Below are positions 6,018 through 53,622 of a DNA stretch of 53,945 bases, one piece after another. Under the pieces are notes generated by a model. The model worked only from the letters and a program-made list of their open reading frames with translations. It did not search any database and had not been told where the DNA came from. The position numbers and the translations under genes were made by a program. The stretch is taken from NCBI GenBank assembly GCA_027031485.1, contig JALVQI010000004.1, positions 1 to 53,945 on the forward strand, read 5' to 3'. The stretch's first letter is position 1, and the number at the start of each line of letters is the position of its first letter. This DNA is from Candidatus Aminicenantota bacterium. GTDB lineage: Bacteria > Acidobacteriota > Aminicenantia > JAMOAD01.

Positions 6018-6461
6018 ATGAAGAAAACTGTTTTTATAAGTGTATTATTTTTTATATTAATTGTTTCCTCTCCCGATTTAAAATCCACAGAGCTTGCAAT
6101 TCACGGTGGGCTGGAGAATGGAGGGAAACAATTTTATGGATTGTATGCTAACTGGGGATTTCTTCCCTTTATAAGTTCGGAGGGAGAATATAACTACAAT
6201 CTGGATACCAAAAATAAGCTTTTTTCAGTGGGACTTTCTGTAAAATTAAAGTTCTCCTTTTTCTCACCATTCGCAAGAGCAGGAATAGGGTTCAGGGAAG
6301 AGGAGTTTTCGTATTCCGGAATACATCTCTTTTACTATCTGGGAGGAGGTTTAAAATTTTATCTTGCTCCGATTATGGGATTAAAAAGCGGTGTTACTCT
6401 TTTAAATGAGAAAAATCTTTCGTACTACAGAATTTACGGAGGAGTATTCATCGAGTTTTAA
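6018..6461 (+). CDS. small outer-membrane beta-barrel-like protein
   Basis: 147 residues with an N-terminal signal peptide (MKKTVFISVLFFILIVSS) and then alternating hydrophobic strands rich in aromatic residues and glycine. It ends in VFIEF, a C-terminal Phe typical of outer-membrane barrels. No named family is recognised; OmpX/OmpA-like small barrels have this size. It probably forms the last gene of the kor-thi4 transcript (22-nt gap). Its stop codon directly abuts the stop of the convergent gene. Confidence 0.55.
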   Translation: MKKTVFISVLFFILIVSSPDLKSTELAIHGGLENGGKQFYGLYANWGFLPFISSEGEYNYNLDTKNKLFSVGLSVKLKFSFFSPFARAGIGFREEEFSYSGIHLFYYLGGGLKFYLAPIMGLKSGVTLLNEKNLSYYRIYGGVFIEF

Positions 6462-7010
6462 TTATCTAAGATAGCCGGGAGGTACCCCTGCTCTACGGGC
6501 ATTTTCTTTGAAATCCTCAAGCTCTTTTTTTAGCTTTTTTAAATTCTCGTTAGCTTTTGCCACCTCTTTTTCTTTTTCGCTTATTTTCTTCGGCAAAGCA
6601 AATTTTTCATTGGGATTATTGGTTATTTTAAACCTGAAAATCAGAGCATCAAGCTCTTTTTTCCTTTGCTTAAATAAATCCTCAGCTACTTTTATCTTAT
6701 GCACTAATTCTCTGTATTTTTTACCCCAACTCTCATAGTTATTCTTATTGAAAGGAGAATCTATTTCTTTTCCCTCAGTAGCACCTCGCCGGGAGATGTG
6801 TGCAGAATTTCCTGTATTGGATGAAATTATATATCCGTATCCTTCTCTTTTCTTAATTTTACCGAGAGTTTTGTTTGTAATAATGGGAACCTTTTTTTTA
6901 ATCTTTTTTCTCCTCTCCTTCTCTTTTTTAGCCACTTCAGCAAGACTTTGAGGATTGGCAAAAGAAATTAAGAAAAATAAAAGAATGAAAAAAGATAGGA
7001 ACTTATTCAT
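6462..7010 (-). CDS. secreted coiled-coil protein with ARRAGVPPGYLR tail
   Basis: A signal peptide (to about residue 20, FANPQS) is followed by a Lys/Arg-rich stretch and a long coiled coil (about residues 90-170). The final residues are ARRAGVPPGYLR; I associate this tail with uncharacterised periplasmic proteins of Acidobacteriota-like bacteria. The function is unknown. It lies 22 nt after the preceding minus-strand gene and is the last gene of the long division operon. The ribosome site is weak (AAGAA). Confidence 0.6.
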   Translation of the reverse strand: MNKFLSFFILLFFLISFANPQSLAEVAKKEKERRKKIKKKVPIITNKTLGKIKKREGYGYIISSNTGNSAHISRRGATEGKEIDSPFNKNNYESWGKKYRELVHKIKVAEDLFKQRKKELDALIFRFKITNNPNEKFALPKKISEKEKEVAKANENLKKLKKELEDFKENARRAGVPPGYLR

Positions 7011-7032
7011 TTTTTAATTCTTCTTTTTAAAC

Positions 7033-7800
7033 TTATTTTAAAACAGCCCAATAATTTCCTTTATAAAGAGGATTTTTTAAATGAAGAATCTTAGCAATTG
7101 AATATCTTTCATTAGAAACCACAATTATACCGTTTCCAAGATAAATTTTGTTACCAACAGAAGGTTCTACCTGAAAAAAGATTATTGGAGTGCCTCTTTT
7201 AAGTCCGACCTTACTTCCGGATTGTAAAAGAACTTTCATCCCCTGTGTCCCTTCATTCACATCATTTTCAATATAAACGATTTTACCTTTTGCTTGAAAA
7301 ATCTTATCCGATAAAGTTTTAATCTCTTTTGGTTCCTTTCCCCTATAGGGCTTATACTCCATATATGGGATCAGAAAAGAACCTATAGTTAAATCAGCAC
7401 ATAGGTTTACGACTTTTACCTTTGTAAAATTTTTTTCTTTTCCTGTTACCATTACTCTTCCGACTTTTCTAATTATTCCTTTAACCCTAACTCCTTCCCT
7501 GTTATAAACAGGCTTTACCACTTCAAAAATGTCACCTTTTTCAATATTTTTTTTGTTAAATTTAGCTATAAGAATTTCATTTATACTGAAATTATTTCTT
7601 ATAAGCTCGTTCTCCTCCGAGGCAACAATTTTTCCGACATGATCGAGGTCATCAAGATATATTCCGCAATAATCATCTTCACCAACAATAAGAGGAAGAT
7701 CCTGAACATAAGTTTTCTTTATTTCCGTAAGCTGTTGTTGACTGAACAATAAACCGGCAAAGATTATTAATAAAAACAATAAAAAAATATTTTTCCTCAT
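7033..7800 (-). CDS. secreted protein of unknown function, division-operon tail
   Basis: The signal peptide (MRKNIFLLFLLIIFAGLLFSQQQ) is clear and the mature part is beta-rich. It shows repeated phrases such as GKIVASE, NIEKGDIFEVVKPVY and GRVMVTGKEKNFTKVKVV, resembling the C-terminal region of LysM-type or FlgT-C-like envelope proteins where 'G-x-I-V' and 'GD-x-V' repeats occur. That likeness is tentative and no LysM motif is visible. The start has AAGGAGG at 5-nt spacing and overlaps the cpoB-like stop as TAATG. Its start region is a 28-nt perfect repeat of another gene's. Confidence 0.55.
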   Translation of the reverse strand: MRKNIFLLFLLIIFAGLLFSQQQLTEIKKTYVQDLPLIVGEDDYCGIYLDDLDHVGKIVASEENELIRNNFSINEILIAKFNKKNIEKGDIFEVVKPVYNREGVRVKGIIRKVGRVMVTGKEKNFTKVKVVNLCADLTIGSFLIPYMEYKPYRGKEPKEIKTLSDKIFQAKGKIVYIENDVNEGTQGMKVLLQSGSKVGLKRGTPIIFFQVEPSVGNKIYLGNGIIVVSNERYSIAKILHLKNPLYKGNYWAVLK

Positions 7801-7817
7801 TATTTCCTCCTTTTTAT
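7790..7817 (-). repeat. 28-nt start-region repeat, copy 2
   Basis: Identical to 2306-2333. It covers the ribosome site, start codon and first codons (MRK...) of the 7033-7800 gene. Confidence 0.8.
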
Positions 7818-8414
7818 CTTTTTTAAATAATTCTCAGATAATTTCGCAGCTTCCGTAAAAGGATAATCCTTTATAACCTTATTAAAGTAAATTTTAGCTG
7901 TTTTATATTTCTTCCGATTGAAATATATTAAGCCTATTTTAAAGTATGCATCCGGGACTTTGTTGGAAGTCGGATACTCTTTATAGACTTTACGAAAGTA
8001 TTGTCTGGCAAGCTGGGTATTATTCTGTTTCAGATATGATTCCCCGATCCAATAAAGGGAATTATCCGAAAGAGAGTTGTCAGGAAATTTTTGTAAAAAA
8101 AGCAAAAAAGTTTCTATTGCCTGAGAATATTTTTTCTGATTATACAGATTTAAACCTTTGGAATACAGTGAATAGGGATCATTTTCTTCTTTTAGCTTAT
8201 TATCTTCTTTTAACTTGTCTATTTGTTGTTTCAACGCCTCGCTATCTTTCTGAAGAGCAACTATCTTTTTTTCCTGATCCTCTGTTTTATTTTTTAATTC
8301 ATAAACCTGTTCCTGAAGAGAATTAAAATTTCTCTCCAGAACTTCGATTTTTTTGTTAACACATCCCGAAGCTAACAGACTTAATACCAAAATTAATGCT
8401 AATTTATTTTTCAT
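7800..8414 (-). CDS. CpoB/YbgF-like TPR lipoprotein
   Basis: The signal peptide MKNKLALILVLSLLASGC has a textbook lipobox. A coiled coil follows (about residues 20-70), then a spacer and three TPR-like repeats (YSKGLNLYNQKKYSQAIETF, IGESYLKQNNTQLARQYF, IGLIYFNRKKYKTAKIYF), the architecture of CpoB/YbgF. In E. coli CpoB links the Tol-Pal system to PBP1B during constriction. No tol or pal genes are in the window; instead the gene lies 52 nt after ftsZ, which supports a role in division. An alternative ATG at 8447 has a weak GGGGA site; I prefer 8414 because of the signal peptide. Confidence 0.75.
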   Translation of the reverse strand: MKNKLALILVLSLLASGCVNKKIEVLERNFNSLQEQVYELKNKTEDQEKKIVALQKDSEALKQQIDKLKEDNKLKEENDPYSLYSKGLNLYNQKKYSQAIETFLLFLQKFPDNSLSDNSLYWIGESYLKQNNTQLARQYFRKVYKEYPTSNKVPDAYFKIGLIYFNRKKYKTAKIYFNKVIKDYPFTEAAKLSENYLKKIKRRK

Positions 8415-8466
8415 TTTTTTTATTTTATAAAAAAAACCAAAAAACATCAAATTTCCCCGAATCTAA

Positions 8467-9666
8467 TTAATCTCCCTTTTTATTTCTTTTGAAAGTGGGT
8501 TCCTTAAAATCCTCCAGAGCGGATGAACCCATTGAACTTTCCAAAGAAGTAGGTGTATTTATCCAGTTAACATTTGTATTATGATCATCATTCGCCTGAT
8601 TTACTCCCACGGTATCCATAGGATTAAGAAGACCTCCCAATCCTGAAGGAGTCTCTACTCCTCTTGAGCTTACCGGTATGGAACTTGTTTTACCCGCATT
8701 AAATCCGGTGGCTATTACCGTCACTCTTACTCTCCCCTCATAATTTTTATCCAGTACGACTCCGAATTTAATCTCAGCTTCTTTGCTAACTTCCCTGGTT
8801 AAATATTCAACGCCTCCTGTTATCTCTTCCATAGTGATATCTTCCCCACAGGTAAAATTAATAAGAAGACCTCTTGCTCCCTTTATGCTCTTTATGTCAA
8901 CGAGAGGATTCTCTATGGCTTGTTTAATCGCATCATACACTCTTTCATCACCTTCCCCTTCTCCCATTCCCATTACAGCCTGCCCCCCCGCACTCATAAC
9001 TGTTTTCACATCTTCAAAATCAACATTCATAAATCCTGTTGTAGTTATAATATCTGCAATACCTTTCACTGCATTCATCAAAAGTGAATCAGCCTGTTTA
9101 AATGCATCTTTAAATGAAATATTTCCATTGTTTAATTCCTTTACCTTTTCATTGGGAATAATTATTATTGAATTAAGTTTTTCTCTTAAGTTTTCTATTC
9201 CACTCATAGCTTTCTGCATCTTTTTGGCACCCTCAAATAAAAAAGGAGTGGTAACGACTCCCACCGTAAGTATTCCTAACTTTTGAGCTATCTCTGCAAT
9301 AACTGGAGCTGCCCCGGTTCCTGTTCCCCCACCCATTCCGGCGGTTATAAAAATCATATTTGAATTTTTTAATTTTTCACTTATCACCTCTTCACTCTCT
9401 TTTGCAGCCTCCTCTCCTTTTCTCGGATCCCCTCCGGTACCCCTTCCTCCGGTTAATTTTTCTCCTATTTGAATTTTTATCGGTGCCAGATTTTTTTGGA
9501 GATCCTGTGCATCCGTATTAACAGCAATAAAATCAACCCCTTCTATCCCCTCTTCAATCATGTGGTTTAGAGCATTCCCCCCTCCTCCGCCAATTCCTAT
9601 TACTCTTATTGAAGTTAAAGGTTGTCTATTTTCAGCTGGCTTTATTCTCATAAAATTTCCTGCCAT
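8467..9666 (-). CDS. ftsZ: cell division protein FtsZ
   Basis: Tubulin-like GTPase that forms the division ring. [13 protein letters not shown] lies near residue 24, the tubulin signature GGGTGTG at 112-118, and the T7-loop region includes [11 protein letters not shown]. The ATG at 9666 has AGGAGG at 7-nt spacing; an in-frame TTG at 9672 sits too close to that site. The C-terminal peptide reads [11 protein letters not shown], keeping the PTF..R core of the usual D-I-P-x-F-L-R tail that binds FtsA and other partners but with a Lys for the Leu. Last canonical dcw gene, following ftsA by 29 nt. Confidence 0.98.
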
Positions 9667-9695
9667 CTCCAATCCTCCTTCTTTAATTTATCATA

Positions 9696-31173: not shown

Positions 31174-34100
31174 CTATCTCCTTTTTTCTTTCCAGTATAC
31201 AAGTCCACCTGCGTATGGGAGAGAAATCTCCTTAACTTTCTTCAATGTGGTAGAACCTAATTCGGGAGTCCCTTCATACATAATATAATCATTCCCCTTG
31301 AGAAAACCGCCACCGGCGACTCTTCCTTCTTCTTTCTCTCCCGATATTTTACCAGCGGGGCATGTTGATATTTTTATATTATAAAACACCATCTCTCCTC
31401 CACTGGCACACGGATCGGTATTAATTCCTTTCGGTGGCTGATAAGTATTAAAATACAAATGGGGCACCATATCATCGTCAGGAAGAATAATTGGTTCAGG
31501 ATCAAACATCTTTTCTCCGTCTGAAGGAAATTTGAAGTAAAAACCTTTCTTTGTTTCATCAAATGTTTCATTGAACGTATCTCCCGACCAGTTTATTTGT
31601 TGTAAATCGGAAAGTTCAATTCCTGTGCTTCCTGTATCCTTTATTGCAATCAATTCCCCTTTATCATCTGTCTTCATGTTGTTCCTATCCCCTGTTCCGA
31701 AGGTTACCCAGAGATTGTAACAATTATCATAGGCAACTGCTGGAGACAGATAGATTGGTTGTTTTGGATCTCCGCTACCGTATGTAGCATGGTATAGTAT
31801 GTCAGGTTCCCAGTTTCCAGGATCAGGATCTGATATATCAAGTTTGAAAAGATTTCCATAGGTATTTCCGAAATAAATTGTGTCTATATAATTATCATTG
31901 TTCAGGTCTATTGCTGTCAAACTCGATGGTATGGGATAGTTAAAGGCCGCATCACTCGTAAGATAGTGATCAGAATTTTGTTCGTCAGAGTTTGCATATC
32001 CTAACATCCACAACAAATCTCCGTTCCAGGCATCAACAAAAAAGATGGCTTTACCTTCAAGGCTTGAAGAATCTCCTCCATTATCGGCATAACCACCGGT
32101 TAATATAACCACATATTTATTAACAATATTTCCAGAAGTTGTCTTATACTTTATCATCCCGATTGCAGGTTTTCCCCATGTATAACCTAAATATTGGACA
32201 TAAGAGGGTTGAGAACCACCGTTAACTTTCCCGAATTTCCACTTGAAGGTTGGGTTATCGGGATCACTTACATCAAATGCATAGTAAGCTTTACCTCCAT
32301 TTCTTAATCCAAAGTAAAGCATTGTTCTCCATATCCTGTTTCCTCCTGAAGTATAAAAAATATCATCAGCGGAGATTCTTCCATCAACCGTAATCTGGTG
32401 TTGTTTATCCAGTACTATCTTTTTTAGTTTTGGTAAAACCTCATCGGGAATAAAGCCGTAAAGCTCCTTTCCTTCTGAACCCGGATCTATATTAGGGTCA
32501 GCATCCACTTCATGTAAAATTCCATCATTTGTTCCAAAATAAATGACTTTTTTTCTATTTTTATGGTTATCATAAAATGTTTTATAGCTCGGATCCAGAG
32601 CTTTTTTCCAGGCAAGAGGAGAACCTATGAATTGAATGTCAGAGTGAAAAAGGTCTCCTAATTTGTATTGCGGGTCGGAAGCTGCCCTATCCCCCCTGAT
32701 AAAGTTAATAATTTTTGTAGCATCTGAGTCCGTAGTAACATCCAATAGGGGTTTTAGAGTGGATAAATTTGATGTTGAAAATTCAAGTATGTTGCCGTTT
32801 CCATCATAGGTATACAAATTCCTTTGAGATGCTTCGGGTATTTCATTAGCTGCATCCCATTCAGGGGTGGAAGAGAGAGAATATTGGGATTCACAAGTTT
32901 TGCCGGCATTTGCTGATTCGCAATCTCCCTTGGTGTCATAAGTACAATTGGTTAGTGCTCCCTGATTATTGACCACACACCATTTTTTTTCTAATTTTTT
33001 TGCAACTAAATGTCCTTCCCAAATAGATGTGTATTTGGGAAGAAAATAACCCATAAAGGTAATATTTTCACCATTCGCCAGCTTTTTGGGTGCTGTAAAG
33101 GAGGTGAATGCGTATGTTTTTTGAAGTATATCATAAATGGCTTCCAATAATCTTTCCTTTAAACTCCTGTAATTGTCCACTGTAAAATATTCACCATGTC
33201 CGTTTCTTGCTGTATTCTCAAGCAGTTGAATATCTATTCTTACACCAACAGTATAGGTTATAATATTTTGCTTTTGATTAAAACCAGACGGATAATTATT
33301 ACCTAAATTAAAAAATGTTTTATCATCCGAAATTAAATCATGATCATAAATATACTTTGCCACATCATCAAGAAGGTGCCCTTGCTTTATTTTTTCATCA
33401 AGACTATCACTATCCCCGTCATAATCCCATGTGTTACTGTTAATATCTCTTATATAGGGATAATACTTGTAGGCATCGGTTGAATGATTATCAAACTCGT
33501 CACTTGTAGGAGCTCCGTCTGTTAGTAATATCACAAAGTTTTTCTGACACCACCACTTAATGGGGGAAGATGCACTTGAATTGGTACAAGAACCCGCATT
33601 GTCAATACTTGAACATGTTCTAGGTCTGCTGTTGTAATCGAAGAAAGCATTACCGTCTCCGTCATAGATGGAACCTTTGTAATATCCATAAGCTGTATCA
33701 AGTGACTCAGCAAGAGGAGTGAAATTGTCCGCTGTTATATCGTTAACCAGATCAAACATCATATTAAGGTTTTCCGTACAGACCGAAGGATTGGAAGTGT
33801 CTTCGCATTGGTCCTGCGTTGAAAGGTCTTTTATTGATAGCCTTATCTGTCCGCCCAACGATCTGTTACTTCCACTACCCGAATAAAAGAATGTTTCTAT
33901 TCCCATATACGCATCATTTCTGAATTTATCCAAAAGCTCAGTCGTAATTCTCCTTATGGCAACCACTCTATTTACCCAATATTTTGTGATAACCCAGCTA
34001 AATCCACCTCCATTGTCCCATACCCACTGCCTGTCTGTTCCACAATAGTTGTAAGTATAGGTTTTTCCCGTGGATGTTGTGTAAGATTTGAAATCATCCC

Positions 34101-34293
34101 ACTCAGAAGGCTCTATACTGACATCACAACTCCCCATTGAACCTGAGTTATCGAGCAAAAAGAGTATGTTCGGCTTAACTTTTACTGAGAAAAGATCTTT
34201 ATCATCCGCAAAACTTTTTTTTGATTGTATAAATGGGAATAGCATAATCAACATTAATAAAAATCTTAATAAAACTATCTTGTTTATTTTCAT
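31174..34293 (-). CDS. PilY1-like type IV pilus tip adhesin
   Basis: 1039 residues. The signal peptide ends near residue 29. A von Willebrand A domain follows with an intact MIDAS start (D48-N-S-G-S-M) and LLTDGAPTSDE. The C-terminal half is the PilY1/PilC beta-propeller (VIYFGTNDGILHEVDA ... YYAFDVSDPDNPTF), including a Ca-binding-like loop DLNNDNYID near residue 795. It contains 14 cysteines, several as close pairs around residues 440-475. PilY1 primes pilus assembly with minor pilins and mediates adhesion or surface sensing. AGGAGG precedes the ATG; the pilX-like gene ends 14 nt upstream. Confidence 0.9.
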   Translation of the reverse strand: MKINKIVLLRFLLMLIMLFPFIQSKKSFADDKDLFSVKVKPNILFLLDNSGSMGSCDVSIEPSEWDDFKSYTTSTGKTYTYNYCGTDRQWVWDNGGGFSWVITKYWVNRVVAIRRITTELLDKFRNDAYMGIETFFYSGSGSNRSLGGQIRLSIKDLSTQDQCEDTSNPSVCTENLNMMFDLVNDITADNFTPLAESLDTAYGYYKGSIYDGDGNAFFDYNSRPRTCSSIDNAGSCTNSSASSPIKWWCQKNFVILLTDGAPTSDEFDNHSTDAYKYYPYIRDINSNTWDYDGDSDSLDEKIKQGHLLDDVAKYIYDHDLISDDKTFFNLGNNYPSGFNQKQNIITYTVGVRIDIQLLENTARNGHGEYFTVDNYRSLKERLLEAIYDILQKTYAFTSFTAPKKLANGENITFMGYFLPKYTSIWEGHLVAKKLEKKWCVVNNQGALTNCTYDTKGDCESANAGKTCESQYSLSSTPEWDAANEIPEASQRNLYTYDGNGNILEFSTSNLSTLKPLLDVTTDSDATKIINFIRGDRAASDPQYKLGDLFHSDIQFIGSPLAWKKALDPSYKTFYDNHKNRKKVIYFGTNDGILHEVDADPNIDPGSEGKELYGFIPDEVLPKLKKIVLDKQHQITVDGRISADDIFYTSGGNRIWRTMLYFGLRNGGKAYYAFDVSDPDNPTFKWKFGKVNGGSQPSYVQYLGYTWGKPAIGMIKYKTTSGNIVNKYVVILTGGYADNGGDSSSLEGKAIFFVDAWNGDLLWMLGYANSDEQNSDHYLTSDAAFNYPIPSSLTAIDLNNDNYIDTIYFGNTYGNLFKLDISDPDPGNWEPDILYHATYGSGDPKQPIYLSPAVAYDNCYNLWVTFGTGDRNNMKTDDKGELIAIKDTGSTGIELSDLQQINWSGDTFNETFDETKKGFYFKFPSDGEKMFDPEPIILPDDDMVPHLYFNTYQPPKGINTDPCASGGEMVFYNIKISTCPAGKISGEKEEGRVAGGGFLKGNDYIMYEGTPELGSTTLKKVKEISLPYAGGLVYWKEKRR

Positions 34294-34307
34294 TTTCTCC
34301 TCCTGAT

Positions 34308-34778
34308 TTAATAACCCATCATCAGAGAATAAATTCCGGCTTCGATTTCCGAATACGCTTTCCTTTTTCCTTTGGTTAACTCGGAAGCAAGATTTATTTC
34401 CCAGATGATTGGTTTTATTGATGTTGTTGTTCCAAGACTTATACCCGGCAATGGCGGAGGTTGGAATCCCTGAAAAATGGTTATAGATGATACTCCTGTT
34501 TCAAAATCACCTGTAAACAATTTTACTTTTGCACCATCCTCAGTGTTTTTTGTTTCATTAAGTGTGATTGAGGAAGGGTCTTCACTGTTTTTCACAAGAA
34601 TTGCCACACTTTCAACTCCCCCCACTGCATAATAATATGAAGCTTTTTTCAAATAATAATTATAAGTGGTAAAAAGTTCAGTGGTGGTTGTTCTTATTCC
34701 TGAAGCTACGATAAATGACAAAATTAAAACTGTTATCAAAGCGATTATTAACATACTTCCTTTTTCTTTTATATTCAT
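34308..34778 (-). CDS. PilX-like minor pilin
   Basis: Type III leader (MNIKEKG, cleaved before SMLIIALITVLILSF) followed by the hydrophobic N-terminal helix. PilX proteins typically lack Glu5, as here. The body is about 135 residues. The ATG at 34778 has GAGG at 6-7 nt; a GTG at 34790 is the alternative and overlaps pilW. The position between pilW and pilY1 supports the call. Confidence 0.75.
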   Translation of the reverse strand: MNIKEKGSMLIIALITVLILSFIVASGIRTTTTELFTTYNYYLKKASYYYAVGGVESVAILVKNSEDPSSITLNETKNTEDGAKVKLFTGDFETGVSSITIFQGFQPPPLPGISLGTTTSIKPIIWEINLASELTKGKRKAYSEIEAGIYSLMMGY

Positions 34779-34786
34779 TTTAAACC

Positions 34787-35911
34787 TCACAAAATAATGT
34801 TGAAATTTCTTGGGTCTACAGAAATCGTTAAAATTCTTGCTTTATAAGTTCCGGTTAATGTATATTGATTTTCATCTCCGATAATAGGAATTTTATTTGT
34901 AATATTCCCCTTTCCCGAATAATCATCTGTGAGCATAACAACCCTTATTGTTACTTCCTTTAATTGTTTCTGTCGTATGGAATCAATAAATGTTTCGCAG
35001 TTGTTATTGTTGGAACACGGATTTTCAAAAGGATTTGTCCATTTATTTGAATCTTTTGCACAGTAGTCCACCTCTGTAGTAAGATCATTTAAATCCGGGA
35101 TAATTGTATAAACTATCTGGATATCCCATATATTTTCAGCCTCCACTCCTTTGACTACAGTTTGATTGTTAAGCGCATCTGCCTGCCCCTTCGTATCTGT
35201 TATTCTAATCAGTTTTCTCACATTTCTCTTTTTCTCCCGGTCATAAACCTGTTGGACAAGATAAATAGAAAAAGAATAAAGTTTTATTACAGGGGTTCCT
35301 GAAGGATAAACTATATTATCACCATCCTGTGTGGCAGGTTGAATTAAATTATCCTTATAGTTGGTGGTGTTTAATAATCCAGAATAGTAAACTGCTGAAG
35401 CTCTTATTGACAGACTATTCGCGTTTACCCCTGTCACATAAAAAACATAATAACCATTTTGAGTAATAACGAGACCTTTGTCTCCAACAGACCAGGCATA
35501 TATATTCCCTGTTATATCCTTTCTATAGGTAGTTTTAACAGAGAGTTGAGTTGAAGAGGAGGGATTAAAATTTGAAGTAAGGCTTGTTACCGCGTTGGGT
35601 TCTCCCTTTGCTATTATTATCCCGTCAGCAAAATTTGTATTATTTAAGGGAAATATTCCATTAAAATAAGGAGTTGTTTTCAGAAAACCACCCGTGTTTA
35701 AAAGAGTTAAAACAGCTCCCGCGTCCTTTAATTCTTCGGAAAGGTTTGATAAAACAAACCTTGACTCCTGCATCAACCTGACTCTGGCTTGCTCGGTGGA
35801 AGCAACATTTCTATAATATATTATCATTGTATAAAGACCACCGAGGATGAATGCCATCATAGCCATGTATACCAGAGCCTCTACGAGAGTAAATCCTTTG
35901 TTTTTTATCAT
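34787..35911 (-). CDS. PilW-like minor pilin
   Basis: Prepilin leader MIKNKG with cleavage before FTLVEALVYMAMM, including the conserved Glu5 of the mature protein. At 374 residues it is long, as PilW proteins are. A cysteine-bearing segment (DYCAKDSNKW...NPCSNNNNCE) lies near residue 275-300. The start has AGGAGGA at 5 nt, encoded by the C-terminal RGG of PilV. Part of a fimU-pilV-pilW-pilX-pilY1 order as in Pseudomonas. Confidence 0.85.
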   Translation of the reverse strand: MIKNKGFTLVEALVYMAMMAFILGGLYTMIIYYRNVASTEQARVRLMQESRFVLSNLSEELKDAGAVLTLLNTGGFLKTTPYFNGIFPLNNTNFADGIIIAKGEPNAVTSLTSNFNPSSSTQLSVKTTYRKDITGNIYAWSVGDKGLVITQNGYYVFYVTGVNANSLSIRASAVYYSGLLNTTNYKDNLIQPATQDGDNIVYPSGTPVIKLYSFSIYLVQQVYDREKKRNVRKLIRITDTKGQADALNNQTVVKGVEAENIWDIQIVYTIIPDLNDLTTEVDYCAKDSNKWTNPFENPCSNNNNCETFIDSIRQKQLKEVTIRVVMLTDDYSGKGNITNKIPIIGDENQYTLTGTYKARILTISVDPRNFNIIL

Positions 35912-35912
35912 C

Positions 35913-36353
35913 TTATCCTCCTCTCTTTGTGGTTAATACAACCCTGAAAGGATACTTGTTTCCTCTTTTCCCGTATTCGACTATTACCTTTATATCCAAT
36001 AGCTCATTATTATTCGGATCCTGAGTAATTATCGTGGTTCTTTTCATACCCTTATAATCTTTAAGATTATTATATTTTGATTTTATGAAAGGGGTATTGC
36101 TGTTACCTGGATGTGAAAAATCTTCCACTATCGTACTTCCTATAACTCCCATATCATTTAATTGATCCTTTTTGTATTTTAGTACCTCTTCTACTCTTTC
36201 TTCAGCAAGGGATATCGCAAGATTTTTTTCTCTTGTTTTGCTGTTAGTATATATTTGGGCTGAAAAACCAGCCAGAATAGCTGTAACTATAAAAGCTAAA
36301 ATTCCCAACGCAATTAAAGCTTCAAGCAGGGAAAAACCTTTTTTATTTTTCAA
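35913..36353 (-). CDS. PilV-like minor pilin
   Basis: Leader (M)KNKKG with cleavage before FSLLEALIALGILAF; the protein is 146 residues. The start is TTG with GGAGG at 8 nt, encoded by the C-terminal GGI of the upstream pilin (11-nt overlap). The SLLEALIALGIL segment and ISLAEERVEEVL are typical of PilV/type IV pilus modification proteins. Confidence 0.82.
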   Translation of the reverse strand: MKNKKGFSLLEALIALGILAFIVTAILAGFSAQIYTNSKTREKNLAISLAEERVEEVLKYKKDQLNDMGVIGSTIVEDFSHPGNSNTPFIKSKYNNLKDYKGMKRTTIITQDPNNNELLDIKVIVEYGKRGNKYPFRVVLTTKRGG

Positions 36354-36858
36354 CTTTAATACCTCCGTATGGATAAATTCTTATTGTCCTTTGATAAATA
36401 AGAGGATTGGAAAGAGAACCGTCTCCTTTCCTAATCCAGATCCTTAAAATGATTTCGGAAGGAAGAGCTGTGGGATTCGATAGATCTGAGACCTTTTTTA
36501 CCTCGCCCCTTGAGTTTATGGCAAAATCCGTTACATCATTTCCTCCAGGAGTAAAAAACATCTTTCCTTCCATAGGTTGTCTTCTTTTTACTACTACAAA
36601 TTGTGATAAGTCTCCTATTTTCTTTTGCTTATCAATTGTGTATGTTTTTCCATCATTTTTAAAATCAATCTTAACCCATCTATTCTCTTTTGAAGCAAGC
36701 TCCTTTGCATAGGCAATATCCGCTATTATTTTGTTTACACCTCCGGAAAACTTTGATTTTGTGATTACATTGCTTGCTATATTGATGCTCACTATGAGCA
36801 AAACTCCGGCAATTACCATTACAACTAAAAGTTCAACAAGAGAAAATCCTCTTTTCAT
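36343..36858 (-). CDS. FimU/GspH-like minor pilin
   Basis: Short leader MKRG, cleavage before FSLVELLVVMVIAGVLL with Glu5 present. The rest shows the GspH/FimU pattern (NKIIADIAYAKELASKENRWVKIDF, FTPGG, INSRGEV). At 171 residues it fits FimU. GGAGGAAG precedes the ATG. First gene of the pilin-PilY1 operon. Confidence 0.85.
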   Translation of the reverse strand: MKRGFSLVELLVVMVIAGVLLIVSINIASNVITKSKFSGGVNKIIADIAYAKELASKENRWVKIDFKNDGKTYTIDKQKKIGDLSQFVVVKRRQPMEGKMFFTPGGNDVTDFAINSRGEVKKVSDLSNPTALPSEIILRIWIRKGDGSLSNPLIYQRTIRIYPYGGIKVEK

Positions 36859-46873: not shown

Positions 46874-47962
46874 TTAAGCTCTTATATCAACCCTTCCGCT
46901 CAAATAATCCATAACGCCTATGTACTCTTCATAATACTCCGAGTTTTCCTTTCCCTCCCTAAAAAGTCTAAATTTTATCTTCTTTTGAGATTCTCCCTCT
47001 TTACCTTTTTCATTTCCCTTTTCTCCTGAATTAAATTCACTCAAAGTCTGAATTACTGGAAGATCAAACTTTAAACCGAGATTCTCAATATTTGTTTTCA
47101 AAGTTTCAATTCCTGAGTTTAAATAGTGCTGAACCTCAGGTTTTTGAACATATATCTTCATGTCCATTTTCTTATCCTGAGAAAAGGAGAGCTGAATATA
47201 CATTTTGCCAAGCTCGGGAGGTTCAATGTGAATTCTGAAAATTTTACTTCCCTTCGGGGTTGTATTCTGAACAATTCTTGCAACCTCCTCAATCAGATTG
47301 CTTTTCCTGACCTCCGCCTTGTTAACTTCCGGTTTTTCGGGTTTAAAATTTTCAAACTTTATCTCCTTTGTATTTGGTGAAATTTTAATCTCCTCTATTT
47401 TTGAAACCTTTGCCCTTGAGACTTCTCCTTTCTTTTTATTATTTATTAATTCTGTTTTGAATTCATTTTCCTTTGAATTTTTGATTTCAGAAATTTTTTT
47501 GTTAATTCCGTTCTTTTTTACTTTTCCCCGTGCCTTTTCAGGAATGAATTTTTCAAGAGCAACTTTTGCACTCTTTGTTTTTGAGAACTTTTCTCTATTT
47601 TTCATAAGTTTTTCAGCATGCAAATTTATGTTATCCTTAGCTCTGTTAATTTTACCCTTTTTAATCTCACTTTTAACCGTTTTTTTTACTTTGACCTTTT
47701 TTTCATCTTTCCCATTTTCCATTTTTCTTACACTCTTTTTATTCACCCCCTCTTTTTTCAAAAAATGATGAACCAATATTGCCAAAAAATTCTTTTCGTC
47801 AAAGCTAAGCTTTCCATCCTTTTTGTTCTTAATCCCTTTTTTCTTAATAGCATTATGTTTTGCCGCTCTATTCTTCTTTCCTGTTTTCTTTTTTCCTCCT
47901 TTCACCGATTGAATGTCCTGCTTTTTAAAATCATTATTTGTCAGAATGATTTGATTATCCAT
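46874..47962 (-). CDS. fliK: flagellar hook-length control protein FliK
   Basis: Secreted molecular ruler and export-specificity switch. The N-terminal two thirds are low-complexity and extremely Lys-rich. The conserved C-terminal hook domain (about residues 230-320) shows IFRIHIEPPELGKMYIQLSF ... VQHYLNSGIETLKTNIENLGL. The ATG at 47962 has AAGGAGG at 8 nt; a GTG at 47971 lies within that site. It carries a 10-residue segment (SAKVALEKFI, about 130-139) shared with the upstream gene. It overlaps the MotE-like gene by 8 nt. Last gene of the flagellar operon here. Confidence 0.85.
   Translation of the reverse strand: MDNQIILTNNDFKKQDIQSVKGGKKKTGKKNRAAKHNAIKKKGIKNKKDGKLSFDEKNFLAILVHHFLKKEGVNKKSVRKMENGKDEKKVKVKKTVKSEIKKGKINRAKDNINLHAEKLMKNREKFSKTKSAKVALEKFIPEKARGKVKKNGINKKISEIKNSKENEFKTELINNKKKGEVSRAKVSKIEEIKISPNTKEIKFENFKPEKPEVNKAEVRKSNLIEEVARIVQNTTPKGSKIFRIHIEPPELGKMYIQLSFSQDKKMDMKIYVQKPEVQHYLNSGIETLKTNIENLGLKFDLPVIQTLSEFNSGEKGNEKGKEGESQKKIKFRLFREGKENSEYYEEYIGVMDYLSGRVDIRA
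47553..47576 (-). repeat. 24-nt repeat within fliK
   Basis: Identical to 48421-48444 in the MotE-like gene and in the same reading frame; both encode KSAKVAL. Confidence 0.85.
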
Positions 47963-48533
47963 TCCCGCCACCTCCTTTCTTTTTAAATTCTTTTAATTTT
48001 TCCTGATACCCTGCCTGTTTGGCAAGAAAATCTATTAAATCAATAAATATCTGCTTATGCTCTGTTGATAATCCCTGCAAAATACTCGTTCTCACCCCTT
48101 TCTTCATTGTGAGGATACTCAAACCTATGGAGTAAAACATATTTTTATCTGTTTTATAATAATAGACAATACTATCTATGGCAGCTTGAGGGTCCAAAGT
48201 TTCAAGAATGGTTTTTATCCTGGAATCAAGTTTTTTTGCTTTTCTTGCTTCCTCAAGCTTTTTCCACTCTTTATTTAACCTCTTCCTCTCTTCCTCAAGT
48301 TTCTTTGCCTTTCTTTCAATTTCTCCCTGCCATTGTCTCAGTGCCTCCTCTTTGTTTTCCAGGATTTTAACTAACCTTGAATAATGTTCCTTTTCACTTT
48401 TCAATTCTTTTATAAATTTATCAAGAGCAACTTTTGCACTCTTTTCGGCATTTTGAGAGCTTAAGGGTAGTATAAAAATCAAATTTAAAAAAACCATCAC
48501 TCCAATCAATTTTTTACAATGACTAATTCTCAT
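47955..48533 (-). CDS. MotE/MgtE_N-like flagellar chaperone candidate
   Basis: 192 residues. A membrane/signal segment (LIGVMVFLNLIFILPLSS) is followed by a long coiled coil (about 45-105) and a helical domain (LDPQAAIDSIVYYYKTDKNMFYSIGLSILTMKKGVRTSILQGLS). The pattern of repeated short helices resembles the MgtE-N/FliG-like domain of MotE and FlbB, proteins encoded after fliJ in many flagellar operons that stabilise the stator MotC or organise the motor. It overlaps fliJ by 11 nt. The C-terminal GGGGNG codons supply the fliK ribosome site. Confidence 0.7.
   Translation of the reverse strand: MRISHCKKLIGVMVFLNLIFILPLSSQNAEKSAKVALDKFIKELKSEKEHYSRLVKILENKEEALRQWQGEIERKAKKLEEERKRLNKEWKKLEEARKAKKLDSRIKTILETLDPQAAIDSIVYYYKTDKNMFYSIGLSILTMKKGVRTSILQGLSTEHKQIFIDLIDFLAKQAGYQEKLKEFKKKGGGGNG
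48421..48444 (-). repeat. 24-nt repeat within the MotE-like gene
   Basis: Second copy of the 47553-47576 repeat, located just after the signal segment of this protein. Confidence 0.85.
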
Positions 48534-48969
48534 GATATCTCTTGGAATTTAAAAAAATATCATCGACTATTTTCTGTTCCTCTTTGTCCAGCTCATAGAC
48601 ATATTCTCTCCATTTCTTTTCTCTGTAGTTCTCAAGTACTTTTTTTGACTTTCTTGCTTCAATCCACTCTTTTAATTTTTCTTCCTCAATCTTTTTTTTC
48701 TCTTCAACTATTTTTGACTGAATTTTTTCAAGTCTCATCAATTGCCCTATATATCTCTGAGTAAGATTAAAAAGCTTTAAATCAATTTCTCCCTCCATTA
48801 AAGATTCTAACTGTTCTCTCCTTTCTCTCTCCTCACGGTATATTTGTTTTAGCCTCTCTTCAGCTTTAACTCTCTCCTTTTTTGCTCTTGCCCAATCCTC
48901 CTTTTTCTTTTTTTCCATATTTATTCTATATTTTAAAAGAGTTTCCAATGAAAATTTAAATCTCTTCAT
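48523..48969 (-). CDS. fliJ: flagellar export chaperone FliJ
   Basis: 148-residue, almost entirely coiled-coil protein starting MKRFKFSLETLLKYRINMEKKKKE, the usual FliJ N-terminus. FliJ acts as the central stalk in the FliI ATPase ring of the export apparatus. The position between fliI and the MotE-like gene supports the call. It overlaps fliI by 14 nt. Confidence 0.85.
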   Translation of the reverse strand: MKRFKFSLETLLKYRINMEKKKKEDWARAKKERVKAEERLKQIYREERERREQLESLMEGEIDLKLFNLTQRYIGQLMRLEKIQSKIVEEKKKIEEEKLKEWIEARKSKKVLENYREKKWREYVYELDKEEQKIVDDIFLNSKRYHEN

Positions 48970-50272
48970 TCTTAAATATCTCCTTTAATCTTTTCAGTGT
49001 CTCATCATATTTTGAGCTTTCATCAATCCTCTGTTTTAAAAAAGCATTGATGGAATTAATCCTTAAAAGAGCTTCATCTATGATAGGATTACTCCCTTTG
49101 ACATAAGCTCCTATATTAATAAGATCCTCAGCATCATTATATGCCGACAGAAGTTCCCTTACCTTGCCTGCATAAACAAGATGTTCCTCATTTACTACCG
49201 AGTTCATAACTCTGCTCACGCTTTGTAAGACATCAATCGCAGGATAATGGTTTTTATTGGCTAACTTTCTATCGAGCACTATGTGTCCATCTAAAATTGA
49301 TCTACTGATATCCGCCACAGGTTCTGTTATATCGTCTGCCTCAACAAGAACAGTGTAAATACCGGTAATACTCCCTTTGTTTTCAAAGTTTCCCGCTCTT
49401 TCCAAAAGTCGCGGAAGGGCTGAAAAAACAGAAGGAGTATAACCCTTTGTTGAAGGAGGTTCACCTGTCGCAAGACCGACTTCTCTCTGAGCATAGGCAA
49501 ATCTGGTCAAAGAGTCAAGCATAATCAGAACATCGTATCCCTTTTCCATAAAGTACTCGGCAACTGCTGTACCAGCATAAGCCGCTCTTAATTTTAAGAG
49601 GGGTGGTTCATCAGAAGTTGCCACAACCACAACGGATCTTTTGAGCCCTGCCCCGAGATCTCTTTCCATAAACTCTTTTACCTCTCTTCCTCTTTCTCCA
49701 ACAAGAATTATAACATTGATATCAGCACTTGTGTTTCTTGCTATCATTCCCATAAGGGTACTCTTTCCCACTCCAGAACCTGCAAAAATTCCTATTCTCT
49801 GACCTTTCCCTATTGTCGTAAAACCATCTATGGCTCTAACTCCCGTTTCCACTTTCTCGGCAATAATTTCTCTTTTCAGAGCTTTGGGAGCTCTTCTGTA
49901 AATAGGATAATAGTCTTCACTGATAATAGTTTCCCTATCATCAATTGGATTACCCAGAGAATCTATAACTCTTCCCAATAATTTTTTCCCGACTTTAATC
50001 CTTGGATACTTCCTTGTTGCAATAACTTTATCGCCAATACCTATTCCTGTCATTTCATCAAGAGGCATGGAAATAATATTGTTTCCCTTAAAACCAACAA
50101 CTTCAGCTATCAAATTTTTCCCTGAAGTTGTTTTAATTTCAAGAAGCTCTCCCACTGAAGAAAGAGGACCTTCACTCTCTACCATAACACCTGTAACTTT
50201 TACAACTTTCCCGTAAAATCTGTAGGGGGTGCTAAGTCTTATTCTATCCACTAAAGATGAACCCTCATTCAT
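48956..50272 (-). CDS. fliI: flagellum-specific ATPase FliI
   Basis: F1-beta-like ATPase energising type III flagellar export. Walker A is GIFAGSGVGKST, followed by NVIILVGERGREVKEF, the Walker B strand VLIMLDSLTRFAYAQREVGLATGEPP and the SITGIYTVLVEADD segment. 438 residues, full length. It starts in an ATGA overlap with fliH. Confidence 0.97.
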   Translation of the reverse strand: MNEGSSLVDRIRLSTPYRFYGKVVKVTGVMVESEGPLSSVGELLEIKTTSGKNLIAEVVGFKGNNIISMPLDEMTGIGIGDKVIATRKYPRIKVGKKLLGRVIDSLGNPIDDRETIISEDYYPIYRRAPKALKREIIAEKVETGVRAIDGFTTIGKGQRIGIFAGSGVGKSTLMGMIARNTSADINVIILVGERGREVKEFMERDLGAGLKRSVVVVATSDEPPLLKLRAAYAGTAVAEYFMEKGYDVLIMLDSLTRFAYAQREVGLATGEPPSTKGYTPSVFSALPRLLERAGNFENKGSITGIYTVLVEADDITEPVADISRSILDGHIVLDRKLANKNHYPAIDVLQSVSRVMNSVVNEEHLVYAGKVRELLSAYNDAEDLINIGAYVKGSNPIIDEALLRINSINAFLKQRIDESSKYDETLKRLKEIFKNEEI

Positions 50273-50994
50273 CGTTTTTCCTCTAAAATATTTAATACTT
50301 CTTCAAGCTTCGTCTCCACCGTGGAATCCACTTCTCCCATATCCGTTTGTATTAAACATCCACCGCGCGTGATCCCTGGGTCCTCTACAATCTCTATTTC
50401 CTTTCCAGAAAGAAGTGAATCGAGTTTCTCTCTATTGCTTGTTAAAAATTTATAATCTTCTGAACTAACCTTTATTACTATCTTCTTTGAATCAATTATA
50501 TTTTTCGTTGTCTCCTTTATAACATTCAAAATAAACTCTTCACTGCTCTTTATTTCAGCTGATACTATCTTTTTCAAAGCTTCTTTAACTATTAATATCA
50601 TTTCACTCTGAGCTTCTTCATAAATCTTTTCTCGCAAGATGTTAAGTTTTTCAAGGGTTTCTCTGTATTTTTCCATTAATTCTTTTGACTTTTCCTCTCC
50701 CTCTTTTAAACCTATAACATAACCTTCTTCATACCCTTTCTCATATCCTTCCTTATATCCTTTTTCATAACCTTCCTTATAACCCTCTTCCGTCTTTTTT
50801 CTTTTCTCTTCGTCTGTTTCAAAAGTATTTTTCTTTACCACTTCAAACATTTCTTTCTCTTTTTCTTCTTTCTCCCTTTTCTCCCTCCTTAAATTCTCTT
50901 CCTTTACAAAATTATCAAAAGAAAATTTCTTTATTTCAAATTTATTCTGCATCTCTTTTTTTATAACCTTAAACAATATACTCTTCACCACCAC
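50269..50994 (-). CDS. fliH: flagellar assembly protein FliH
   Basis: Regulator of FliI. The charged N-terminal region leads into G-x3-G repeats (GYKEGYEKGYKEGYEKGYEEGY, about residues 70-92), the helix-packing repeats typical of FliH, then the V-type-E-subunit-like C-terminal domain (EIVEDPGITRGGCLIQTDMGEVD). The start is one of three tandem GTG codons (50994, 50991, 50988) behind AGGAGGAGG; 50991 or 50988 have the better spacing. It overlaps fliG by up to 26 nt. Confidence 0.9.
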   Translation of the reverse strand: MVVKSILFKVIKKEMQNKFEIKKFSFDNFVKEENLRREKREKEEKEKEMFEVVKKNTFETDEEKRKKTEEGYKEGYEKGYKEGYEKGYEEGYVIGLKEGEEKSKELMEKYRETLEKLNILREKIYEEAQSEMILIVKEALKKIVSAEIKSSEEFILNVIKETTKNIIDSKKIVIKVSSEDYKFLTSNREKLDSLLSGKEIEIVEDPGITRGGCLIQTDMGEVDSTVETKLEEVLNILEEKR

Positions 50995-51988
50995 CTCCTC
51001 CTATTGAAATTACCCCTTCTTCCTCAAGTTCTCTGACAACTTCAACAATTTCATGCTGAGCCTTTTCCACATCTTTAACCCTGATCGGTCCCATATACTC
51101 CATTTCCTCTTTCAGCATTTCCACAGCCCTCTGAGACATATTCCTGAAGAATTTTTCTTTAAGTTCGTCAGATGCTCCTTTAAGTGCAATGGCAAGGCTC
51201 TTTTTATCCACCCTCTTCAATATTTCCGCTACACCGTGATCATCTATCATAAGAATGTCTTCAAAAACAAACATCATATCTCTAACCTGAACAGCAAGTT
51301 CCGGATTTTTGACTTCTATTTGTTCCAATATTTGTTTTGCAACTCTTCTTTCCATTCTATTAAGAAGATCAGCGACGGCTTTAACCCCTCCGTACTCTTC
51401 AAGCTTATACGAACCGAGCGATTGTAACCTCTGATCAAGAACAGATGAAATCTTTTTTACAATATCAGGAGAAATTTCCTCTAAATTCGCCATTCTGATT
51501 GTAATTTCAGCTCTAATGTCCTCAGGTAAGGATTCGAGCAATTCCGCAGCTCTTGATGCCGAAAGATGAGCCAGAATGAGAGCAATTGTCTGGGGATGTT
51601 CATTTTGTATGAATTTTGATATTTGCTGAGGATTTACCTTTTCAAGGGAGGCAAAACCAACGGATTTTTCAAGAAGCTTCACCAATCTATCTATTATCTT
51701 TCTTGCCTGTTCGGGTCCCAATGCTTTTATTAAAACACTTTTTGCATAGTCTATACCTCCTATTGCAATATATTGTTTTGCAATCGCCATATTATAGAAC
51801 TCTTCCATAATTCTTTCGGAGACCTCAGCTGGTATGGGGCCCAATAAGGTTATCTCCCTGCTTATATCAGCAATTTCTTCTTCATCAAGACGACTAAAAA
51901 CTTTAGAAGTTATCTCATCCCCTAAAATTACCATTAGAATTGCTATTTTTTGAAGATTTGTCAGACTTTCATACTTAAGTTTAGCCAT
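50969..51988 (-). CDS. fliG: flagellar motor switch protein FliG
   Basis: Rotor protein of the switch complex. FliG-N, the EHPQ motif (NEHPQTIALILAHL) of the middle domain, and the FliG-C torque helix with charged residues (LMIDDHGVAEILKRVDKKSLAIALKGASDELKEKFFRNMS) are all visible. 339 residues, normal. The C-terminus ends GGGGGEEYIV, an unusual Gly run whose codons contain the fliH ribosome site. TAATG overlap with fliF. Confidence 0.96.
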   Translation of the reverse strand: MAKLKYESLTNLQKIAILMVILGDEITSKVFSRLDEEEIADISREITLLGPIPAEVSERIMEEFYNMAIAKQYIAIGGIDYAKSVLIKALGPEQARKIIDRLVKLLEKSVGFASLEKVNPQQISKFIQNEHPQTIALILAHLSASRAAELLESLPEDIRAEITIRMANLEEISPDIVKKISSVLDQRLQSLGSYKLEEYGGVKAVADLLNRMERRVAKQILEQIEVKNPELAVQVRDMMFVFEDILMIDDHGVAEILKRVDKKSLAIALKGASDELKEKFFRNMSQRAVEMLKEEMEYMGPIRVKDVEKAQHEIVEVVRELEEEGVISIGGGGGEEYIV

Positions 51989-53622
51989 TATTCCTCCAGA
52001 AGCATACTTCTAATTATGGCCACAAGATCATCAGTATTTTCAGTGGCGAATTTCTGCAGCTTTTCCCTTATTATTTCAATCTTTTTTGCCTCTTTAGGAG
52101 GTCTATATTGACTTTCAATTTCCTTTTCAAGCTGTTTTCTCTCTTCGACCGCATCCAATTGAGGGGGAGCTTTTTCTTCTATTTCCCCTACGGAAATGCC
52201 TCCCGGAGGAAGGTGAGATTTTTGTTTTCCAATCTCAGCGGTGACTTTTTTAACCATCGGTTTTAGCACAAAGAAAATAAGGATAAGTGCCAAAAGCAAA
52301 ATAATACCATATTTCATACCAATGGCTAAAAATTTCCTCTTTTCCTGACTTTTCATATATTTTTCAGACTCTATCTTATATGTTTCATCAAAAGACAAAT
52401 TCGCAACTTCAAGAGTATCTCCCCTATCTTTGTTTATCCCCACGGCGGCAGCCACAAGTTTTCTTATCTTATCAAGTTCTTCAGGAGTTCTCGGCACCTT
52501 CTTTTCTACAATCTCTTTTCCTTTCTTTTCCAGTTTAACGGCATCATCAACTATAACAGAAACCGAGAGCTTTTTAATCTCACCGGAAGGAAAAACCGTT
52601 TTTAAAACAGTTTTGTTTATTTCATAATTTATTAAATCCTTTTTTATTTCACTTTTTTTTGTTGTTCCACCTGAAGTTTGGGTGGTATTGCCGGCAACAT
52701 TTGAACCGACACCCGGAGTTCCCCCCTGAGTACCCTCAGTTATTTTTTGAGTTTCACTTTTTTCACTTCTTTCCACCTGACCATTCGGGTCATATATCTC
52801 ATCTACCTTTTCTTTTTTTGTAAAATCAAGGTCGGCCACAACACTTGCTCTGACCTTTCCTATTCCCACTATCGGTTCAAGAAGGGTAACTATCTTTTTT
52901 GCCATCTCTCTGCTGACCTTTTCCTTTATTTCAAGTTGCTTTGAGCTAAGCTTAACATCTTTGCCGGAAAATTCAGGTGAAGCAAGGAGTCTTCCATAAA
53001 CATCAACAATTGTAACATTTTCAGGAGTAAGCCCCTCAACAGCGGAGGAAACAAGATGAACGATTGCTCCTATTGTTGAGCTTGAGAGAACTACTCCCGG
53101 ATATACATTCAAAACAATAGATGCTTTTGCCGGTTCTCTTTCTTCAAGGAAAACAGATTTTTTCGGAAGAACAAGATGAACCTTTGCAGATTTAACCTCT
53201 CTAATGGAGGAAATCGTCCTGCTTAACTCCCCTTCAAGGGCTCTCAGGTAGTTTATCTTTTCCATAAACTCAGTCATTCCAAGTTTGGATTTATCAAAAA
53301 CCTCAAATCCGACCCCTCCTCCTTTGGGTAAACCCATTGCGGCAAGATTAATTCTCAACTCATTAACTTTATTTTCGGGTACCTTTATTACATTACCACT
53401 TAACCTGTACTTTACTTTCATATCTTTCAGCTTTTGGATTATAAGAGACGCATCTTCATCACTTAAATTGGAAAAAAGAACAGCATATTGAGGAGTATTT
53501 GCCCACATAATCAAACCAATTAACCCGGCAAAAACTATTAAAATAACTGAAACAAAAAATATCCTTTGTGAGGTTGAAAGATTTTTAAAAATATCTCTCA
53601 TTTGAGTTAATATGTTTGGCAT
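51988..53622 (-). CDS. fliF: flagellar MS-ring protein FliF
   Basis: 544 residues with two membrane spans (about 20-42, FFVSVILIVFAGLIGLIMWA, and about 432-452, YGIILLLALILIFFVL). Between them lie YscJ/FliF ring-building motifs (GGGVGFEVFDKSKLGMTEF, LEGELSRTISSIREVKSAKVHLVLPK). The C-terminal tail (TDDLVAIIRSMLLEE) is the FliG-binding region. The ribosome site is weak (AAGGGTG); it starts 6 nt after the fliE stop. Confidence 0.96.
   Translation of the reverse strand: MPNILTQMRDIFKNLSTSQRIFFVSVILIVFAGLIGLIMWANTPQYAVLFSNLSDEDASLIIQKLKDMKVKYRLSGNVIKVPENKVNELRINLAAMGLPKGGGVGFEVFDKSKLGMTEFMEKINYLRALEGELSRTISSIREVKSAKVHLVLPKKSVFLEEREPAKASIVLNVYPGVVLSSSTIGAIVHLVSSAVEGLTPENVTIVDVYGRLLASPEFSGKDVKLSSKQLEIKEKVSREMAKKIVTLLEPIVGIGKVRASVVADLDFTKKEKVDEIYDPNGQVERSEKSETQKITEGTQGGTPGVGSNVAGNTTQTSGGTTKKSEIKKDLINYEINKTVLKTVFPSGEIKKLSVSVIVDDAVKLEKKGKEIVEKKVPRTPEELDKIRKLVAAAVGINKDRGDTLEVANLSFDETYKIESEKYMKSQEKRKFLAIGMKYGIILLLALILIFFVLKPMVKKVTAEIGKQKSHLPPGGISVGEIEEKAPPQLDAVEERKQLEKEIESQYRPPKEAKKIEIIREKLQKFATENTDDLVAIIRSMLLEE

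Follow-up and report, generated by a model that had tools for sequence, protein, structure and literature searches.

Are the three genes that lie directly behind ftsZ in a genome of Candidatus Aminicenantota new division genes? The question is raised by the window, i.e. the whole 53,945-nt stretch of DNA analyzed here, which is contig C4 of a 2.97-Mb, 245-contig MAG (coded G000). It was originally predicted that the trio, comprising a TPR lipoprotein resembling CpoB/YbgF, an exported beta-rich protein and an exported coiled-coil protein, supplies divisome or outer-membrane constriction factors, two of them undescribed. We compared the locus across a set of 60 genomes, including G000 itself.

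Gene order, ftsZ linkage and promoter-like sites

The gene at the head of the row is certainly ftsZ, given its score against TIGR00065 (Table 1). It is followed on the same strand by the genes for the TPR lipoprotein, the beta-rich protein and the coiled-coil protein, with spacers of 52, −1 (a TAATG overlap) and 22 nt. The genes, coordinates, strand and gaps of the original prediction were thus all recovered, as was its description of one tight unit in which a CpoB/YbgF-like TPR lipoprotein stands with two exported proteins, and in other genomes relatives of the trio or of its last pair show the same order and close spacing. The trio is therefore a real gene unit that is kept in order elsewhere. 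In our reading of the translations, the second and third proteins start with signal-peptide-like stretches. The site of the trio is probably the outer membrane/peptidoglycan. At the far end of the unit, a gene for a beta-barrel-like outer membrane protein (6018-6461, + strand; weak OMP_b-brl match, below the cut-off) is convergent with the coiled-coil gene, with zero bases between them.

Table 1 Coordinates of the ftsZ-trio locus and of the flagellar genes in the window
Feature	Coordinates	Strand	Remarks
ftsZ	8467..9672	-	TIGR00065, 388.9 bits vs cut-off 295.2
Sigma70-like promoter-like site TTGATG-17-TAAAAT	8422..8450	-	Ends 7 nt before the lipoprotein ATG
CpoB/YbgF-like TPR lipoprotein (predicted), 204 aa	7800..8414	-	Lipobox Cys18, coiled-coil-like stretch, then TPRs
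Exported tandem FlgT_C/TsaP-type (beta-rich) protein, 255 aa	7033..7800	-	Profile matches; no OmpA domain
First FlgT_C-like domain, residues ~40-160	7321..7683	-	Contains Cys45 and Cys134
Second FlgT_C-like domain, residues 161-255	7036..7320	-	Homologous to first domain (hhalign)
Exported coiled-coil protein, 182 aa	6462..7010	-	N-terminal KKExxRRKK motif, C-terminal ARxAGVPPGYLR end
Flagellar genes (FliK-like, FliJ, FliI-type ATPase, FliH, FliG, FliF)	46874..53622	-	Same contig as the trio

We looked at 58 ftsZ loci, 53 of which had sequence downstream of ftsZ. The trio was found behind ftsZ in only two of these 53 genomes, G000 and G002, which belong to one genus; in G002, the lipoprotein gene and the second gene follow ftsZ, and the contig ends within the second gene. 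Outside the window, the trio is complete in G004, a member of the same family, and in two f5 genomes, G021 and G056. In these three genomes, the trio and ftsZ are on separate contigs, the G004 trio being placed behind a sodium:alanine symporter gene; the MAGs G021 and G056 are fragmented and may contain binning errors. In 37/53 genomes, the first same-strand gene after ftsZ belongs to one other gene cluster (a single BLAST cluster, L166-L215), two members of which were scanned and both matched a Pfam amidohydrolase family; we read this cluster as imidazolonepropionase-like. The conservation of genomic context that had been proposed as a check on a division role was thus not observed. With the trio behind ftsZ in so few genomes, all of one genus, and with ftsZ and the G004 trio on different contigs, the case for a division role is weaker: these data do not support the ftsZ neighbourhood as a mark of divisome factors, nor the special meaning given to it. 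Linkage within the unit, scored on stop-to-stop reading frames, has a wider distribution: the second gene and the coiled-coil gene stand side by side in all 21 f5 genomes where both are visible (in a 22nd, G036, the coiled-coil gene is at a contig end) as well as in G000 and G004, and they were not seen together in the 29 genomes of other families with a coiled-coil gene.

At four of the five trio loci, the first ATG of the lipoprotein gene is preceded by a sigma70-like site (spacer 17 nt) that ends 6-7 nt before it: TTGATG/TAAAAT in G000, TTGACA/TAACAT in G002, TTGACA/TAATAT in G004, and TTGACA/TATTAA in G056. In simple dinucleotide shuffles that we made ourselves (1000 per locus), these scores were reached anywhere in 98, 9, 44 and 15 shuffles, respectively, and at a like position in 25, 2, 7 and 2. 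G021 had no convincing site (742/1000 shuffles reached its score anywhere and 140/1000 at a like position), and when the region, which is AT-rich, was scanned for the general consensus, sigma70-like sites were not in excess (14 vs 11.8 expected). A Shine-Dalgarno sequence, present on many genes of the window, is absent from its lipoprotein gene; this absence, together with sites that end 6-7 nt before the ATG, suggests that the trio has its own leaderless mRNA. Judging from these sites, the trio probably has a promoter of its own, and read-through from ftsZ may also occur. A strong promoter or terminator between 8414 and 8467, combined with a lack of conserved linkage, had been named as evidence that would speak against the original prediction. 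This is largely what was found, since linkage was confined to 2/53 genomes and the gap holds a sigma70-like site with positional counterparts in G002, G004 and G056, but the window's own site is only a moderate match.

Features of the three encoded proteins

The TPR lipoprotein passed the cut-off of the tol_pal_ybgF equivalog (TIGR02795; 103.9 vs 90.1 bits; the query in the Pfam/NCBIfam scans carried one extra codon at its start), and its PDB matches were YbgF (3.2e-18) and CpoB (6.6e-15). The G021 and G056 lipoproteins scored under the same cut-off, with 62 and 64.5 bits. YbgF was favored far above PilW (8e-30 vs 5.5e-5), and the FlcA model matched weakly (4.3e-6, 25.5 bits vs a cut-off of 300). 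The sole Cys sits in the lipobox in all five trio lipoproteins; no lipobox-like motif was found near the start in the full frames of the other 19 YbgF rows (16 distinct; L064 is cut at a contig end). E. coli CpoB is a soluble periplasmic protein without a lipobox. The trio protein is like CpoB/YbgF of the Tol-Pal system in having a YbgF-type TPR domain that follows a coiled-coil-like stretch, but it is predicted to be lipidated, is shorter, forms one clade with the other trio lipoproteins in the YbgF tree (support 98/95), and is not encoded next to pal in the window. Among the matches listed, G001-G004 have a separate YbgF-type gene ~0.8 kb from pal, a spacing read by eye in these four genomes only. 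No Pal above the cut-off was among the matches listed for the G000 assembly, from which pal-cpoB is probably missing. In G000, the counterpart of the gene preceding pal in G002 stands at a contig end (L108 1-125, G000:C214). The TPR lipoprotein is thus predicted to be a paralogue that is lipidated, and not the CpoB that is linked to pal.

The second protein did not match any Pfam or NCBIfam model above the cut-off on its own. Among 28 aligned relatives, 18 matched FlgT_C at E≤0.01, and no other FlgT domain was detected in the 28. The scores of L053 (27.1) and L043 (27.0) were right at the FlgT_C cut-off of 27, and the window protein itself gave no match. A profile of these 28 relatives retrieved TsaP chains from the PDB (6ve2, 2.5e-8; 3jc8, 1e-6) as its only matches at E≤1. 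FlgT, the structure of which has been solved, was not matched at E≤1 in this PDB sequence search. The two halves of the protein are mutually homologous (hhalign; probability 96%, E 3e-9 for one comparison), and Cys45 and Cys134 are each kept in 44/46 homologues. A Pal-like OmpA domain occurs in 11 of the 28 aligned relatives, which are all 11 f5 members of the set; this fusion was also seen for the G021 homologue on a single-sequence scan. In L053 and L050 (family f5), FlgT_C-type domains fused to the OmpA domain adjoin the coiled-coil gene. The f5 homologues resemble Pal in this domain and differ from it in that two FlgT_C-like domains precede it, and it is absent from the G000 and G004 second proteins. 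The family shares with TsaP, which is associated with the type IV pilus secretin, a homologous C-terminal FlgT_C-like domain region and export; unlike TsaP, it has no LysM domain (none in 28 members at E≤0.01), has the OmpA domain instead in f5, and sits in a cassette with the TPR lipoprotein and the coiled-coil protein. Of the two proteins that were considered undescribed, the beta-rich one can therefore be assigned to an FlgT_C/TsaP type.

A FlgT_C/TsaP-like gene was found in 54/60 genomes (43 by single sequence and 11 beside the coiled-coil gene), and in other families it sits elsewhere, e.g. by ddl, ruvX or mltG. Support in the tree for joining the second proteins of f1 and f5 is weak and the branches are long, so their orthology is based on gene order. 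A weak paralogue match at G000:C35 (26% identity) was not found again by the profile, had no Pfam match and was dropped. The structure model of the second protein (pLDDT 32.9) was too poor for a structure search, which we counted against the flagellar reading discussed below.

The coiled-coil protein fits its description as undescribed in that no Pfam or NCBIfam model matched it above the cut-off, yet its family is common in the phylum: it was found in 53/60 genomes of the comparison set and matched in at least 155/297 Acidobacteriota genomes. Among 59 rows (some genomes occur twice), 55 have the N-terminal [KR]xExxRR motif and 33 a PGW/PGY end; in families f3, f8, f9 and f10 (L138-L161), the C-terminal end is often IWIR or IWIK rather than PGWLR. 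No FlgT_C/TsaP-like gene was found within ~1.5 kb flanks of the coiled-coil gene at 17 loci, 16 of them from other Acidobacteriota.

Co-occurrence with FliF and rival explanations

Using FliF as a marker for flagella, we found it in 7/60 genomes (G000-G004, G021 and G056). Among the 54 genomes with a FlgT_C/TsaP-like gene, again on stop-to-stop frames, the lipoprotein lies upstream of this gene in 5/5 genomes with FliF and in 0/49 without it (Fisher 3e-7, kinship ignored), and the match holds within f5 too. Contig edges were dismissed as a cause of the missing lipoprotein, as all 49 loci lacking FliF have at least 1.3 kb available upstream of the FlgT_C/TsaP-like reading frame; as only three positives (G000, G004 and G021) went into the lipoprotein profile, very diverged lipoproteins could escape it. 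On an FtsZ tree with long-branch warnings, in which 49 rows were scored for both traits, three changes were needed for each and 3/3 independent pairs agreed, a number too small for a sign test to reach 0.05 (p 0.25). It is the lipoprotein that shows the link to FliF; the FlgT_C/TsaP-like gene does not. Many genomes lacking FliF have the second and third genes, and a flagellar role for the whole class-wide FlgT_C/TsaP-like family was rejected, as 49 of the 54 genomes with the gene lack FliF. FliF is present in G001 (99% complete) and G003 (85%), in whose assemblies (~370 and 390 contigs) the second and third trio genes were not found and the lipoprotein search returned only the pal-linked type and weak matches. 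The flagellar genes of the window are 38-45 kb from the trio, and a single gene separates the G021 trio from cheA-cheR-cheB, ~1 kb away; apart from these che genes, none of the annotated trio neighbours in G004, G021 and G056 (one neighbour only in G056) is flagellar.

Since, among the genomes compared, the lipoprotein is found beside the ring gene, as we call the FlgT_C/TsaP-like gene in view of its possible role, only in genomes with FliF, the trio most likely scaffolds the flagellar basal body in the periplasm and is encoded as its own, movable cassette, rather than supplying new division proteins; we give this reading a probability of roughly 0.4. The trio could instead form a secretin collar, in which the second protein would be the TsaP of these bacteria, tying PilQ or GspD to the cell wall, with the lipoprotein being pilotin-like. 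TsaP-type chains were, after all, the only PDB matches at E≤1, secretins occur in 59/60 genomes and the FlgT_C/TsaP-like protein in 54/60, and the window carries pilin-like and PilY1-like genes. However, the lipoprotein tracks FliF and not the secretins, which are too near-universal to discriminate; it fits YbgF far better than PilW, LysM is absent, and the trio contigs of G000, G002, G004, G021 and G056 lack secretin matches. TsaP itself varies in role: excerpts of PMC8811193 and PMC7545093 suggest it as an anchor of the PilQ secretin to peptidoglycan, while describing a deletion without effect on pili in P. aeruginosa and no implication in V. cholerae. We thus regard a secretin collar as unlikely. 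The PilY1-like propeller protein of the window is encoded in a row with minor-pilin-like genes (31174-36858, - strand), most pilin matches being below the cut-off.

The trio might also be a general outer membrane-peptidoglycan tether without a dedicated machine, the flagellar link being a by-product of kinship. The class-wide presence of the second and third genes, the OmpA domain in f5 and the small number of independent events are all consistent with this, but the exact match between lipoprotein and FliF in 54 genomes, f5 included, argues against it, and we consider it about as doubtful. The original view, that divisome/outer-membrane constriction factors are co-expressed with ftsZ, seems improbable, also when the trio is taken for a second Pal/CpoB-like unit at the septum. 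The short gap behind ftsZ is kept in G002, the TPR protein is of the CpoB type, f5 homologues carry a Pal-like OmpA domain, and CpoB couples peptidoglycan synthesis with outer-membrane constriction in E. coli, according to part of PMC4458516. These points have to be set against the rarity of the ftsZ linkage, the promoter-like sites before the lipoprotein gene and the separate pal-cpoB pair of G001-G004 (among the matches listed), and the divisome view leaves the co-occurrence with FliF unexplained.

A possible periplasmic scaffold of the flagellum

A scaffold of the flagellar basal body might work as follows. A self-contained outer-membrane/periplasm cassette would have landed behind ftsZ in this genus, where a promoter of its own would probably give it a leaderless mRNA. 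The TPR lipoprotein would be anchored in the outer membrane, the tandem FlgT_C/TsaP-type protein would form or line a periplasmic ring, and the coiled-coil protein, from a family common in Acidobacteriota, would join the two. The ring and coiled-coil proteins may be class-wide envelope components, the lipoprotein being seen beside the ring protein only together with FliF. We infer that the scaffold would contact the flagellum and act like the H/T rings of Vibrio or the disks of Campylobacter.

Flagellar scaffolds elsewhere include TPR proteins, outer-membrane lipoproteins, FlgT and the peptidoglycan-binding MotY, as described in parts of PMC7990780 and PMC6504787. The second-protein family resembles the Vibrio H/T rings (FlgO, FlgP, FlgT, MotX and MotY) in a FlgT_C-type domain, matched in 18 of its 28 aligned members, and a lipoprotein and a peptidoglycan-binding protein around the flagellum, reported in the same excerpts, offer an analogy. 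In contrast to Vibrio FlgT, the Pfam matches of the family are near the cut-off and absent in the window protein, with the other FlgT domains and the PDB FlgT unmatched. PflA/PflB and FlcA are likewise analogous as periplasmic TPR scaffolds of flagella (PMC7990780, in part), but no specific homology to the trio lipoprotein was seen and the FlcA model matched weakly. Literature searches combining FlgT with OmpA domain, LysM and two further terms, FlgT_C with OmpA, Aminicenantes with ftsZ, and TsaP with FlgT and LysM returned nothing.

More specifically, and tentatively, flagellated Aminicenantes may have built a new scaffold on a TsaP/FlgT_C-type ring protein found throughout the class, whose Pal-like wall-binding domain is present in some genomes and absent in others, and on a coiled-coil protein from a family that no curated model covers; what they added would be a CpoB-type TPR protein that is lipidated. 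Such a scaffold would be a ring module common to secretin and flagellar machines. The coiled-coil family with its PGWLR-type end stands out as a candidate for initial functional work. If the flagellar reading is true, the trio would be a warning that nearness to ftsZ in a single genome is poor evidence for a division role. For a phylum that has received little study, it would also add a flagellar scaffold that did not turn up in the literature searched, and it would support the view that the wall-contact domains of TsaP, around secretins, and of FlgT, around flagella, go back to one origin.
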